NCBI RefSeq assembly: GCF_012027305.1
Contig: NZ_SNUF01000003.1
Span: 1 to 64,000, forward strand
Direction of reading: 5' to 3'
Length of the DNA stretch: 64,000 nt
Source of the DNA: Thermococcus sp. MAR1
GTDB lineage: Archaea > Methanobacteriota_B > Thermococci > Thermococcales > Thermococcaceae
The notes below the pieces were generated by a model. The model worked only from the letters and a program-made list of their open reading frames with translations. It searched no databases and was not told the origin of the DNA. The position numbers were made by a program, and so were the translations under genes. Shown here piece after piece: positions 16,436 to 54,931 of this stretch. Each line of letters begins with the position of its first letter. The first letter of the stretch is position 1.

Positions 16436-16542
16436 GGTATTTTCTCCACCATTCTCCCTTATTAACGTTGGCCCCAACTTTTTTAAATTTGATGTGGATT
16501 TTTCTCTAGAACTATCAAGAAATTTACACGAGGGTGTCCAAA

Positions 16543-17103
16543 ATGGAGGATATGAAAGGCCAACTCATCGACATGTTCTTCTCCGAGGGAGCCATACTCT
16601 TCGGCCGCTTCGTTCTCACCTCCGGAAAAGAGAGTGACTATTACATCAACGTCAAGAAGCTCTCCACCAACCCGAGAGCACTGAGGATAATCGCGAGGCT
16701 GATGGCAGAGAGGACTAAAGCGTTTGGCATCGAGTTCGACAGGATTGCTGGCCCGGAGCTTGGAGCGGTGCCGATAGCGACGGCCCTGTCCCTGGAAACC
16801 GGAAAGCCCCTAGTCATAGTCCGCAAGAAGCCCAAGGGACACGGCACCGGAAGCCAGATCGAGGGGGAAGTAAAACCGGGCGAGAGGATACTCCTGGTTG
16901 AGGACGTTACGACAACCGGCGGGAGCGTTCTGAAAGCCGCTAAGGTTCTGGAGAAGGCTGGGGCGGAGATAGCAGCTATAAGCGTGGTGGTTGACAGGGA
17001 GGAAGGGGCCGGTGAGAGAATAGGGGGGGAGTACCTGTTTATGCCCCTGGTCACGGTTTCAGAGCTTTTTGCCCGCAGGGACTCTGCCGGAGTGAAGGAA
17101 TGA
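16543..17103 (+). CDS. pyrE: Orotate phosphoribosyltransferase
   Basis: The 186-aa enzyme converts orotate and PRPP to OMP in pyrimidine synthesis. [16 protein letters not shown] is the orotate-binding start, [18 protein letters not shown] is the flexible catalytic loop, and [13 protein letters not shown] is the PRPP-binding motif. The ATG at 16543 lies six bases after GAGGGTG; GTG at 16534 is the alternative. A TATA-like TTTTTTAAATTT lies at about 16479-16490. Its 3' end overlaps the convergent MinD-like gene by 45 bases. Confidence 0.93.
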
Positions 17104-17892
17104 AAGTATCGCCTCGTAAAGCCTGTGGAGAAGGCCGTTTCTTTTCTTCCTTCCGAATATCCACTCGTCAAGAACCGAGCCGGCCTCGCTTATGGCCCTT
17201 GAAGCTGGTGCGTGCGGCGCGTACTCTAGGACCGGCCGACCCATGTTCGTTGCCTCCGGAACCTTGTAGTCGTGGGGTATTATGCCGACGACTGGAACGT
17301 CGACGCTGTACTCGAGGAAGTCCACCACGTCGTCGATGTTGGCCGAGGATTCCCTGACCTTGTTGATGATGACACCCACCTTCAGGCCGTAGGCTTCCCC
17401 AAGGGCCTTTAGCTTGACGACCTCGTTCTCCACCATCTTGTGTACCGAGTGTATTGGACAGCGCTCTATCTCGAGTATGATGAGCTGGTATTGGGCTAGT
17501 CGGAAGGTGGATATCGTGTCGAAGGGTATTCCGACGGGGGAGTCTATTATCGTCAGCCTGTACCTGGCCGAGATCTCCCGCACTATATTCCTGAGGCGCT
17601 TGTTGTCAATGTCAAGAACGTCGTACAGCCGTGAACTCCCTGGAAGAACATCAACTCCCGTGTTCACATCATGATACACAGCGTTGAGAACCCTCATGTC
17701 CGGGTTCTTTAGGAGGGTATGAAGGTTGTAGACAGGGTTGTATATGCCGAAATGAAATGCAAGCTTTGGCAGGTACAGGTCACCGTCTATGACGAGCGTT
17801 CTGTAACCATTCCTGGAGAAGTAGGTGCTTAGATTGGCGGTCATGGTGGTCTTCCCTGCACCGCCTCTTCCAGTTATAACGACTGATACCAC
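17059..17892 (-). CDS. MinD/ParA-like ATPase with altered Walker A and amphipathic C-terminus
   Basis: The 277-aa protein is a MinD/ParA-superfamily ATPase. Its P-loop is GRGGAGKTT (residues 8-16). The superfamily signature lysine (GKGG) is replaced by arginine-9, encoded by AGA, while the catalytic Walker lysine-14 is kept. Later landmarks are [11 protein letters not shown] (switch I region), [10 protein letters not shown] (Walker B) and VIINKVRE. The tail [15 protein letters not shown] looks like an amphipathic membrane-targeting helix similar in kind to that of MinD. The start is GTG at 17892, seven bases after GGAGG; a longer TTG form begins at 17928. The upstream neighbour on the same strand is a small winged-helix gene. 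Confidence 0.8.
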
Positions 17893-17944
17893 CTCTAGCC
17901 CTCCGGAGGTCCTTGTTATTCTCAGCAAAAATTATTGAAAGTAA

Positions 17945-18160
17945 TCAGAGGTAATCCTCTATGGTCTTGGCCTTGACCATTATTGAAGCCTTCTTCTGGC
18001 CGTAGAAGACCTCAACTAAGCCGTCGGATTCAAGCTGCTTAACGGTTTTTAGAACCGCTGGCATTGGAGTCTCAAGCTCGGCACTCAACGTCTGAAGCGC
18101 CACGGCCCTTTTCTTGGTAGCGAGGGTCTTATAAACAACATCCTTACGCCTGCCGAACAT
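17945..18160 (-). CDS. Small winged-helix DNA-binding protein
   Basis: The 71-aa protein reads as a winged helix-turn-helix. VYKTLATKKRAVALQTLSAELETP is followed by the recognition helix MPAVLKTVKQLESDGLV and a basic wing (EVFYGQKKASIMVK). The ATG at 18160 follows GGTG at a reasonable distance; a GTG at 18169 is possible. It is 52 bases upstream of the MinD-like gene on the same strand and probably heads that operon. An 8-bp inverted repeat brackets its promoter. Confidence 0.7.
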   Translation of the reverse strand: MFGRRKDVVYKTLATKKRAVALQTLSAELETPMPAVLKTVKQLESDGLVEVFYGQKKASIMVKAKTIEDYL

Positions 18161-18223
18161 CAAGGGCACCGATATCTAATTACTCTCTCCTACTAAATAA
18201 ACCTTCTGGGGTAGAGTTCGGCA
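18151..18223. promoter_or_regulatory. Inverted repeat TGCCGAAC/GTTCGGCA around the winged-helix promoter
   Basis: TGCCGAAC (18151-18158, just inside the winged-helix gene) and GTTCGGCA (18216-18223) are perfect reverse complements 57 bases apart. They bracket a minus-strand TATA-like GGTTTATTTAG (about 18201-18212). They could be paired operator half-sites for autoregulation, although an 8-base match over this distance can arise by chance. Confidence 0.3.
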
Positions 18224-18269
18224 CACGTACGAAGGGCAGATTTATAAGGTGCCCACTGGATGAAAAACC

Positions 18270-19523
18270 ATGCGGGGAGTTGTCGAGAGGCTTGACATGG
18301 AAGGTTTGGGCGTCGTGGGACTGGGAAAAAAAGAAATTCACATTCCTTTCACCACACCGGGCGATGTTGTGGAAGTCCGGAGATGGAGGCGGAGAAAGAG
18401 AACACTAATAGCCACGGATTTTGAGGTGGTGGAACCCTCTCAAAACAGGGTCGATCCCAAATGCCCCCACTTTGGAACGTGCGGTGGCTGCCTTCTCCAG
18501 CATATCCCCTACGAGGAGCAGGTTAGGTTTAAATCCGACAAATTGTCCAGGATTTTGGGCTTCGATGTCGAAGTCCTTCCATCGTCCGTGATTTATGGTC
18601 ACAGAAACCGCATCGATGTTGTCATTTCGACAAATGGAATTGGGTTCAGAAGGCGCGGTACCTGGTGGGACGCGGTTGACATCGAGTGGTGTCCAGTTTT
18701 CGGCGAATCCAGCAGGAGGGTTCTCCGCTCCCTCAGGGAGTTTGTAGAGGACTTTAGGCTGAGTCTGTACGAGATACGGAAGAATGAAGGCTTTTTGCGC
18801 TACATCGTCATCCGTGAGGGCAAGTTCACGGGCGAGCTGATGGTTAACCTAGTAACCTCCCCGGGGAAGCTCCCCCCGGAGTTCCCGGAATACTTCAACT
18901 ACGCGACTTCCGTCTACTGGAGCGTCAATAGAACGCAGAGCGACGTTTCGTATGGTGAGATAGAGCGCTTCTGGGGAAGCGAGTTCATACGGGAGCGGCT
19001 CGACGACGTTACCTACCTGATCCATCCAAACAGCTTCTTCCAGACGAACAGCTATGCCGCTGTAACGCTGGTTAGGAAGGTGGCCGAACTGGTCGACGGT
19101 GGGAGGGTTCTTGACCTCTACTCCGGCGTTGGGACCTTCGGCATCTACCTGGCCAAGAGGGGCTTCGAGGTGGAGGGAATCGAAGCCAACCCCTTTGCTG
19201 TGGAAATGGCCAACAGGAACGTTGAGCTGAACGGTGTTGATGCGACCTTCAGTGTTGGTGAGGACAAGAACGTCGAAAATCTTTCGGAATACGAGACGAT
19301 AATCGTTGATCCTCCAAGGGCGGGGTTGCATCCCAAACTGATAAAGAAAATCTTAAAAGACAAACCGCAAAGCATCGTTTACGTCTCCTGCAATCCGAAG
19401 ACCCTCAGAGCTAATCTCGATGAACTGGAGGGAGTTTACTCTCCAGAGACTGCAGTGGGAATCGATATGTTCCCGCACACGCCTCACGTGGAGACGGTTG
19501 TCAAACTTAAACTCAAGGTTTAA
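18270..19523 (+). CDS. TrmA/RlmD family RNA (uracil-5-)-methyltransferase
   Basis: The 417-aa SAM-dependent enzyme belongs to the TrmA/RumA family, which makes 5-methyluridine in tRNA (U54) or 23S rRNA. An N-terminal TRAM-like segment is followed by the [4Fe-4S] ligands CPHFGTCGGC (about 62-71). The SAM site is VLDLYSGVGTFGIYLA, and the catalytic block is IIVDPPRAG plus VYVSCNPKTL, containing the nucleophilic cysteine. Thermococcales carry two paralogues with different RNA targets, and I cannot assign this one with certainty. TATA-like GATTTATAAGG at 18239-18249 leaves at most a short leader. Confidence 0.87.
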   Translation: MRGVVERLDMEGLGVVGLGKKEIHIPFTTPGDVVEVRRWRRRKRTLIATDFEVVEPSQNRVDPKCPHFGTCGGCLLQHIPYEEQVRFKSDKLSRILGFDVEVLPSSVIYGHRNRIDVVISTNGIGFRRRGTWWDAVDIEWCPVFGESSRRVLRSLREFVEDFRLSLYEIRKNEGFLRYIVIREGKFTGELMVNLVTSPGKLPPEFPEYFNYATSVYWSVNRTQSDVSYGEIERFWGSEFIRERLDDVTYLIHPNSFFQTNSYAAVTLVRKVAELVDGGRVLDLYSGVGTFGIYLAKRGFEVEGIEANPFAVEMANRNVELNGVDATFSVGEDKNVENLSEYETIIVDPPRAGLHPKLIKKILKDKPQSIVYVSCNPKTLRANLDELEGVYSPETAVGIDMFPHTPHVETVVKLKLKV

Positions 19524-52988: not shown

Positions 52989-53894
52989 TTACTCCCCCTT
53001 GGATTCATCGGGGGCTTCCTTCTCGCCTTTCATAGCTTCAAGCTTCTCCACGAGCTTGTCAACTATCTCCATGAAGGCCTTCGCCGCCACGGTGTCCTCG
53101 TAGAGAACTATTGGAATCCCCGCGTCGCTGGCCTCTCTGGCCCTGAGGTCTATCGGAATCTCTCCGAGGAAGTCAACACCTTCCTTCTCGGCGAGCTTCT
53201 TTCCGCCACCCTTGCCGAAGATGTCTATCTCGTTGCCGCAGTGCGGGCAGATGAGGTAACTCATGTTCTCGATGACAGCGACGTAGGGCACCTCCATCTT
53301 CTTCATCATGTTGACGGCCTTGCCTGTGTCGAGCAAAGCGACCTCCTGAGGGGTAGTGACTATCACAGCGGCGTCGAGCTTGAGGGTCTGGGTAACGGTG
53401 AGTATCTCGTCGCCGGTTCCCGGGGGGAAGTCGATTATCATGAAGTCCAGCGAACCCCACTTGACGTCGCCGAGGAGCTGCTTGATGGCTTTGGTGACGA
53501 GCGAACCGCGCCAGATTATCGGCTGATCCTCCGGGACGAGGAAGCCCATGCTCATGACCTTGATCGGGGTTGTCTGGCCAAGGAAGTCGTTCATCGGGGG
53601 TATCATCTCAAACCTGCCGTCTTCCATCTTCTCGGCCAGAACCTCGGCCTTGTCGACGCCGAGCATCTTGGCGACGTTCGGTCCGTGTATGTCGGCGTCG
53701 AGTATTCCGACGAAGTAGCCCTTCTTTGCCAGAGCGGCGGCGATGTTAACCGCAACGGTGCTCTTTCCAACGCCCCCCTTACCGCTCAGGACGGCTATCT
53801 TGTACGTCCACTTTTCCTGCTTCTCGTTTATCCTCTGGGTGAGGGGATCAGCGCCCAGTCCGCCTATGTTGAGTGTGGGAGCTTTGATGGTCAT
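52989..53894 (-). CDS. Mrp/NBP35-type iron-sulfur carrier ATPase
   Basis: The 301-aa ATPase belongs to the ApbC/Mrp/NBP35 family, which binds and transfers [4Fe-4S] clusters to apoproteins. The deviant Walker A is SGKGGVGKST near residues 37-46, and DADIHGPN and IIDFPPGTGDE follow. CPHC near 216-219 is the cluster-binding motif. The window is rich in Fe-S enzymes (CODH, POR, GAPOR, Tes, UDG) that would need such a carrier. The ATG follows GGAGGTGA. Two inverted repeats cover its promoter. Confidence 0.9.
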   Translation of the reverse strand: MTIKAPTLNIGGLGADPLTQRINEKQEKWTYKIAVLSGKGGVGKSTVAVNIAAALAKKGYFVGILDADIHGPNVAKMLGVDKAEVLAEKMEDGRFEMIPPMNDFLGQTTPIKVMSMGFLVPEDQPIIWRGSLVTKAIKQLLGDVKWGSLDFMIIDFPPGTGDEILTVTQTLKLDAAVIVTTPQEVALLDTGKAVNMMKKMEVPYVAVIENMSYLICPHCGNEIDIFGKGGGKKLAEKEGVDFLGEIPIDLRAREASDAGIPIVLYEDTVAAKAFMEIVDKLVEKLEAMKGEKEAPDESKGE

Positions 53895-53909
53895 CTAATT
53901 CACCTCCGG

Positions 53910-53954
53910 CTTAGGTTGGCCTAAGGTGCTTAAAAGTTTTGTCCAAAACTTTTA
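53910..53954 (-). promoter_or_regulatory. Promoter of the Mrp gene with two adjoining inverted repeats
   Basis: CTTAGG-TTGG-CCTAAG (53910-53925) lies where transcription should begin. TAAAAGTTTTG (53931-53941) pairs perfectly with CAAAACTTTTA (53944-53954), covering the minus-strand TATA-like ACTTTTAAGC (53926-53935). The pair suggests controlled expression, for example in response to iron or oxidants, but no regulator is identified. Confidence 0.45.
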
Positions 53955-54025
53955 CAGTATTATACATATATGGGTATCAGGCTGTGAGATGAAAGTTGAA
54001 AGAAACAGAGAGAGCAGCGTGTTAA

Positions 54026-54931
54026 CTACTCCGCGTACTTCAGGAGGATATCTTTCAGCTCTAGGGCTTTCACGTAGGTCGGTGACTCGGGATTGGCGAG
54101 TATTGCCTCTATCTCCGGGTCGTACTCCTCCACCATCTCATCGTAGGGGATCACCGTCTTCGTGGTGAAGTCGTTGAAGCCGAGCTCGTTCAGGATTCTC
54201 TCGACCTTTTCCACGTGAGTACTCTTCTTCACTTTGTTGATTACCAAGTGGATGTGCTCTATGCCCAACTGCTTCGCCAGTTTCGCCGCATCAACCGCCA
54301 CCTGAACGGAGTTGTAGGTTGGCTCTGTGAGTATAACCGCCTGCTTGAAGCCCTTAGCTAGGGCCCTTCCAAAGTGCTCCAGCCCGGCCTGCGTGTCCAT
54401 CAGGATTATCTCGCCCTTCCGGAGGTTTATGTACTTGATGACGGCATCGAGAAGAGCATTTTCGGGGCAGAGACAGCCGGCCGCGGCCTGAACTACACTT
54501 CCCATGACGAGGAGCATGACGCCATCAGGTCCAACGACACCGAAGCGGTCAACGACGTCCCTGACGTCGGGGGTAAGCGAAAAGTAGAGCCCCCAGTTGG
54601 TACCGGGTCTTGCTCCGGTCTTCTCCTCTATGTAATCCAAGTTTCTGTTGAGGGGGACTATCTTATCGCGCACTTCCTTTGGAACGCCGAGGGCGTGTGC
54701 GAGATTCATCTGAGGATCCTCATCAACGGCCAGAACACGGTAGCCATCCCTGGCTAGGAGCCTCGCGAGAATAGCCGTCATTGTGGTTTTTCCAACTCCA
54801 CCCTTGCCCGTTATCACGACCCTGAAGCCCTCCTCAGGGCCCTGTTTTTTGGTTCGTTCCCTTAACTCATCGGCGATTTCAAACAGCTTCTTTCTCCTTT
54901 TCTCATCCTCTGGATTCAGAGGTTTTGTCAT
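54026..54931 (-). CDS. cooC: CooC-type CODH nickel-insertion ATPase
   Basis: The 301-aa MinD-fold ATPase matches CooC, which helps load nickel into carbon monoxide dehydrogenase. The deviant Walker A GKGGVGKTT is near residues 42-50 with the signature lysine kept. VDEDPQMNLAHALG is the switch I segment. CLCPENALL contains the CxC that binds metal at the dimer interface. A 35-residue charged N-terminal extension precedes the fold. It is divergent from cooF-cooS across 336 bases. TATA-like CATTTATATC (54962-54971) and a GAGGTG site serve it. Confidence 0.9.
   Translation of the reverse strand: MTKPLNPEDEKRRKKLFEIADELRERTKKQGPEEGFRVVITGKGGVGKTTMTAILARLLARDGYRVLAVDEDPQMNLAHALGVPKEVRDKIVPLNRNLDYIEEKTGARPGTNWGLYFSLTPDVRDVVDRFGVVGPDGVMLLVMGSVVQAAAGCLCPENALLDAVIKYINLRKGEIILMDTQAGLEHFGRALAKGFKQAVILTEPTYNSVQVAVDAAKLAKQLGIEHIHLVINKVKKSTHVEKVERILNELGFNDFTTKTVIPYDEMVEEYDPEIEAILANPESPTYVKALELKDILLKYAE

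Follow-up and report, generated by a model that had tools for sequence, protein, structure and literature searches.

A Thermococcaceae MinD-like subfamily with arginine at the signature lysine position and its accessory member in Thermococcus sp. MAR1

Thermococcaceae probably possess a MinD-type ATP switch of their own, in which arginine takes the role of the signature lysine, and the gene described here, as judged by sequence comparison, is the accessory member of that subfamily. It lies in the window, that is, the whole stretch of 64,000 nucleotides of Thermococcus sp. MAR1 DNA that was analysed. The name R-MinD is coined here for the Thermococcaceae MinD-type subfamily with an arginine signature residue. 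The comparison of family members supports the view that this arginine is old and conserved, an ancestral trait of a MinD-like group separate from canonical MinD. According to the excerpt of PMC6328274, possession of the signature lysine often serves as the defining mark of ParA/MinD ATPases.

The accessory R-MinD gene (17059–17892, minus strand, GTG start at 17892–17890) encodes a MinD-fold P-loop ATPase of 277 aa. The first-pass annotation had claimed an arginine at the signature lysine position, and this is confirmed, for the open reading frame has Arg as residue 9 (17866–17868), within a deviant Walker A motif (residues 8–16; 17845–17871, minus strand) that contains RGGAGKTT and so departs from the canonical KGGxxGK[ST] with its signature lysine. 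The protein passes the cut-off of PF01656 (CbiA; CobQ/CobB/MinD/ParA) with 64.2 bits against 25.4, and homology over the domain together with the predicted MinD fold places it in the ParA/MinD superfamily. To the NCBIfam model of archaeal MinD, TIGR01969, it scores 128.4 bits (E 2.5e-37), which is under the curated cut-off of 201.75. The solved structures nearest to it by sequence are the MinD proteins of P. furiosus and P. horikoshii, while its ten nearest named relatives come from Thermococcus and from Thermococcaceae MAGs. The AlphaFold model has a mean pLDDT of 84.3; when it was used as a Foldseek query, the ten best matches were MinD entries (1hyq, E 3.7e-18), and FlhG, FleN and Soj were also returned; archaeal and bacterial MinD structures are thus the closest. 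The protein has a predicted MinD fold, and its ATP-site residues are intact. The gene is under purifying selection, with dN/dS between 0.048 and 0.109 in six close pairs of accessory copies. Elsewhere in the window, at 53655–54820 on the minus strand, there are two further P-loop ATPases of the ParA/MinD superfamily, with the motifs GKGGVGKTT and GKGGVGKST.

R-MinD family matches were found in all 94 Thermococcaceae genomes, that of the window included, and they fall into two old paralogues of the subfamily, as their sequences show. The core copy has about 247 residues and mostly ends near EEWIFG, and the accessory copy carries a C-terminal extension. Core loci were found in 91 genomes but not in G045, G088 and G091, each of which is less than 81% complete. 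In 89 of the 91 loci, from six genera, the gene immediately downstream of the core copy encodes HMG-CoA reductase, and the remaining two loci reach a contig end. Between the two genes the gap spans -4 to 38 nt, with a median of 17, over 88 of these loci, and comes to 16 nt in the 89th. The upstream side of the core copy is variable, with a tdh-like gene in some genera and none in others. In the genome of the window the core R-MinD is locus L002 (G000:C1:600436-601170), which adjoins the HMG-CoA reductase gene (PF00368, 483.6 bits) like the 88 further loci. The accessory copy is patchily present and decaying: it occurs in 54 genomes, is intact in 49 and broken in five, through the N-terminus in G068 and G060, through frameshifts in G069 and G029, and through loss of the first part in G072. 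Since five of the 54 copies are broken, the accessory copy is dispensable.

Some genomes carry additional members. Tandem R-MinD pairs occur at L049:3998-5576 (G090), L056:4001-5520 (G001) and L057:4001-5534 (G002). In their second copies the signature position holds no arginine, being Ala in G090 and Pro in G001 and G002; moreover, Asp37 is replaced by Asn in G090, and the second copy of G002 is split over two frames. After the G001 pair comes a gene for a PilJ-type methyl-accepting chemotaxis protein (L056:5771-7534). The genome of the window also contains a further MinD-like paralogue, with GFEGSGKT and no basic signature residue (L003:1492-2214; G000:C1:1034198-1034860), which sits downstream of an MscS-type channel gene, and a similar paralogue with GLEGTGKT is found in G026 (L271).

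The arginine is nearly invariant within R-MinD. It was read in 90 of 90 readable core P-loops and in 50 of 51 readable accessory ones, i.e., 140 of 141 in sum, although one of the 50 accessory rows, that of G029, is a pseudogene reading GRGRAGKT. The lone lysine among the readable accessory rows is that of G045 (row L074). Outside Thermococcaceae, lysine is present in 12 of 12 MinD-type P-loops from eight genomes of the same class, and the three further MinD-type matches in the Thermococcaceae genome G093 also have lysine at the signature position. Among 40 distant matches outside Thermococcales, all 39 readable P-loops have lysine and the remaining match lacks the motif; the query patterns for these did not extend to the signature residue, but one of them, GKTTMTAN, favours P-loops of the R-MinD kind. 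In the 138 aligned rows, the residues of the nucleotide site are kept almost throughout (Lys13 in 138, Thr14 in 137, Asp35 in 138, Asp37 in 137, Asp116 in 138 and Asn176 in 138; these are numbered without the start Met, and Arg9 with it). Because the remaining nucleotide-site residues are kept, the arginine is not a product of decay.

A branch with 99/94 support sets the 48 grouped accessory rows apart in the tree, and the lysine row L074 falls inside this clade. The simplest history would therefore be that arginine was fixed early and returned to lysine once, and the lysine of G045 looks like a derived exception, an apparent reversion. Orthologues with the normal lysine, which the first-pass annotation had taken to count against its reading, are thus represented by this single case, yet it is a derived one and arginine is conserved elsewhere. 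The tree contains 92 rows. The broken or partial rows L041, L047, L050, L077, L183, L198, L263, L269 and L270 were omitted, as were the duplicate L158, two pieces of the L057 second copy and the core rows L058 and L061, and only 13 of one batch of fetched core rows were kept. Long branches lead to the second copies of the tandem pairs, to the L003 type and to the lysine row L074, so that their places in the tree, that of L074 included, are less sure.

Among known systems, archaeal MinD (P. furiosus 1g3q, P. horikoshii 1ion and A. fulgidus 1hyq) resembles R-MinD in predicted fold, P-loop and size, while R-MinD differs in having arginine for the signature lysine, in an identity of 26–27% over the structural match, and in falling under the TIGR01969 cut-off. 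Changed signature residues are given in a table (Table 1) of a review, in the excerpt of PMC9178275, for BcsQ (RGGVGTT) and McdA (SGGQGKT). By that account BcsQ, a regulator of cellulose secretion, is MinD-like with arginine at the signature position, as R-MinD is, but has T in place of the catalytic lysine, whereas R-MinD keeps Lys13 in 138 of 138 rows. McdA of type 1, which positions carboxysomes, is a ParA/MinD protein that lacks the signature lysine like R-MinD, and the Synechococcus protein is active with an unusually high ATPase activity, as far as the excerpts of PMC6328274 and PMC8262871 go; it has Ser, shifts DNA and has the partner McdB, in contrast to the arginine of R-MinD. Haloferax MinD2 and MinD4, which the excerpt of PMC11588486 describes, are extra archaeal MinD-like paralogues as R-MinD is, in a different lineage. 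Among the matches listed from the open literature, judged by titles and the beginnings of abstracts, none was a paper on the arginine subfamily or on its biochemistry.

The flanks of the accessory gene are conserved. On the convergent side is a pyrE-like gene (16534–17103, plus strand) with a phosphoribosyltransferase domain (PF00156, 71.2 bits), whose product we take to be orotate phosphoribosyltransferase, and on the divergent side a tRNA (uracil-54, C5)-methyltransferase-like gene, called trmA here (18270–19523, plus strand), with PF05958 and PF21579 over their cut-offs. R-MinD and pyrE overlap tail to tail by 45 nt (17059–17103), where PAGKKL and the stop codon are antisense to SELFAR of PyrE. 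All 47 loci in which the two genes were located show such an overlap, of 4–69 nt with a median of 45; this count omits the broken or relocated loci L047, L056, L057, L077 and L183, and pyrE was not found near L029 and L049. The overlap calls for caution whenever the C-terminus is interpreted. Since the last 14 codons of R-MinD are antisense to pyrE, the fact that they are conserved does not count as evidence for the tail. PAGKKL was also considered as a functional C-terminal tag and rejected, as it is antisense to SELFAR where present.

The remainder of the accessory tail, basic for the most part, could fold as an amphipathic helix. A segment of 15 residues in the tail of the protein described here has a hydrophobic moment of 0.55, but when this tail was shuffled 500 times, 132 of the shuffles reached that value, and in most rows the tail helix is no better than shuffled tails. 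AlphaFold places a tail helix at residues 253–266 at low confidence (block means 55 and 49), with residues 249–253 and 266–276 below 50. Because the conserved PAGKKL is antisense to SELFAR of PyrE, the evidence that the accessory C-terminus is a membrane-targeting tail is weak. Moreover, the core paralogue mostly has no tail, so tail-based membrane binding cannot be general to the subfamily.

Upstream of the gene pair, the TATA-like element GAAGGTTTATTTAG (18193–18206, minus strand) is unchanged in 14 of the 15 upstream regions aligned, the window's own among them, and carries one substitution in the other; it is the probable promoter of the winged-helix gene, going by this conservation; GGTGCC ahead of the start is also conserved upstream. 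The sequence TGCCGAAC, put forward earlier as a possible operator, did not hold up. There are three copies in the window against 1.72 expected, and at least three were obtained in 23 of 100 shuffles. The upstream copy (18216–18223) has the same place in three of 15 aligned upstream regions, the window included, and the second copy (18151–18158) lies inside the codons M-F-G-R of the winged-helix gene. As an operator it is rejected on these counts, that is, the chance-level number, one local copy being coding and the other occurring in three of 15 upstream regions, and its copies are best explained as chance occurrence.

The gene preceding the accessory copy encodes a winged-helix-like protein (17945–18160, minus strand; 71 aa if it starts at ATG, 74 aa if it starts at the GTG at 18169). 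None of its Pfam matches, TrmB and HTH_20 among them, reaches the curated cut-off, the best E values of a profile search against solved structures are 0.064–0.084, and the AlphaFold model is of low confidence, with a pLDDT of 59.6. It is a core gene, with one match per genome in 91 of 94 genomes and in 74 of the 74 good genomes; it was not matched in G053, G085 and G088, whose completeness is 53–75%.

The first-pass annotation proposed that the two genes form a membrane-to-DNA positioning or regulatory system, in which the winged-helix protein would bind an operator or centromere and R-MinD would link it to the membrane. In its favour, 46 of the 49 genomes whose accessory copy is intact have the winged-helix gene immediately ahead of R-MinD in the same orientation, and in most of those 46 pyrE follows; the exceptions are G001 and G002, where the accessory ATPase is present as tandem copies elsewhere, and G041, where it is also away from the winged-helix gene. 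The conservation of the two as neighbours thus stands, but obligate pairing does not, and is ruled out: the winged-helix gene occurs, independently of the ATPase, in each of the 49 genomes where the accessory ATPase is intact and in 42 of the other 45. Twenty winged-helix loci were compared, 17 of which belong to genomes that lack an intact accessory copy. Of the 20, 13 have the gene adjoining pyrE with no R-MinD between, two of which, in G001 and G002, carry R-MinD elsewhere; a broken R-MinD lies between the two in one locus, and in six pyrE is elsewhere or the locus is otherwise arranged or out of range. Since the winged-helix gene is present and adjacent to pyrE without R-MinD, it is a core gene beside R-MinD rather than a dedicated partner, and the adjacency would be inherited synteny, with a shared transcript at most. 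The ParABS type of organisation, i.e., a dedicated DNA-binding partner together with centromere repeats, does not apply, because the winged-helix gene is independent of the ATPase; a conserved repeat was sought at 17889–18290 and none was found. With TGCCGAAC not conserved in addition, the proposed system is not supported, and we regard it as highly improbable.

The remaining alternatives concern the arginine itself and the cargo. That R-MinD is simply a canonical archaeal MinD with neutral drift from lysine to arginine is unlikely: the exchange is a conservative one and G045 appears to have reverted, but arginine is kept in 140 of 141 readable P-loops across two paralogues, and the genome of the window holds two MinD proteins with GKGGTGKT that are both over the TIGR01969 cut-off, at 387.9 and 332.7 bits, while the accessory R-MinD is under it. 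That the core copy and the HMG-CoA reductase gene are neighbours in six genera would suit a role of R-MinD in the membrane-lipid branch, with HMG-CoA reductase controlled or placed by the core copy and the accessory copy as a duplicate that has specialised; this reading, whose basis is gene order alone, is rather improbable, as the accessory copy has no link to HMG-CoA reductase and the upstream neighbours of the core copy vary. Haloferax MinD4 acts in polar positioning of the chemotaxis and archaellum machinery, and by analogy R-MinD might do the same, which we consider very doubtful. The chemoreceptor gene after the tandem pair in G001 would fit, and within the good Thermococcus genomes a strong CheW match is found in 16 of 35 with and two of 14 without an intact accessory copy, a weak excess with P 0.052 when kinship is ignored. 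Across the 74 good genomes, however, CheW occurs in 18 of 41 with and 12 of 33 without the copy (P 0.63), and archaellin in 32 of 41 with and 29 of 33 without (P 0.36). Weak CheW matches (E >1e-20, in G019, G021, G033, G050, G055, G067 and G088) were not scored as CheW. The genome of the window itself has no CheW match, yet shows three archaellin-family matches. Over the 74 good genomes, the presence of strong CheW or archaellin matches therefore shows no association with that of the accessory copy, and the link finds no support.

The preferred reading, that of a Thermococcaceae ATP switch of the MinD type whose arginine stands in for the signature lysine, can be put as a mechanism as follows. 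The signature residue would have been fixed as arginine before the Thermococcaceae radiated. Arg9 may preserve the positive charge that extends over the dimer interface to the phosphates of ATP. If so, R-MinD would still alternate between a dimer with bound ATP and a monomer that is either apo or bound to ADP, with hydrolysis perhaps altered. The ATP dimer may then dock on a partner or on the membrane, in the latter case possibly via its basic tail, and through this docking would position or regulate a cargo. A more far-reaching version, to which we attach only a slim chance, takes the arginine signature, the core copy coupled to HMG-CoA reductase, the accessory copy and heterodimers with the degenerate tandem partners together as an unrecognised ATPase subfamily with its own chemistry. 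If true, asymmetric R-MinD heterodimers would couple an ATP switch to the patterning of the membrane or to the synthesis of its lipids.

An organism family with arginine in two paralogues and with the catalytic lysine kept amounts to a natural experiment on the role of the signature residue, and Thermococcus is a genus with genetic tools. For the family as a whole, the fixed link between the core copy and HMG-CoA reductase, as seen in gene order, offers a lead on what R-MinD may do.
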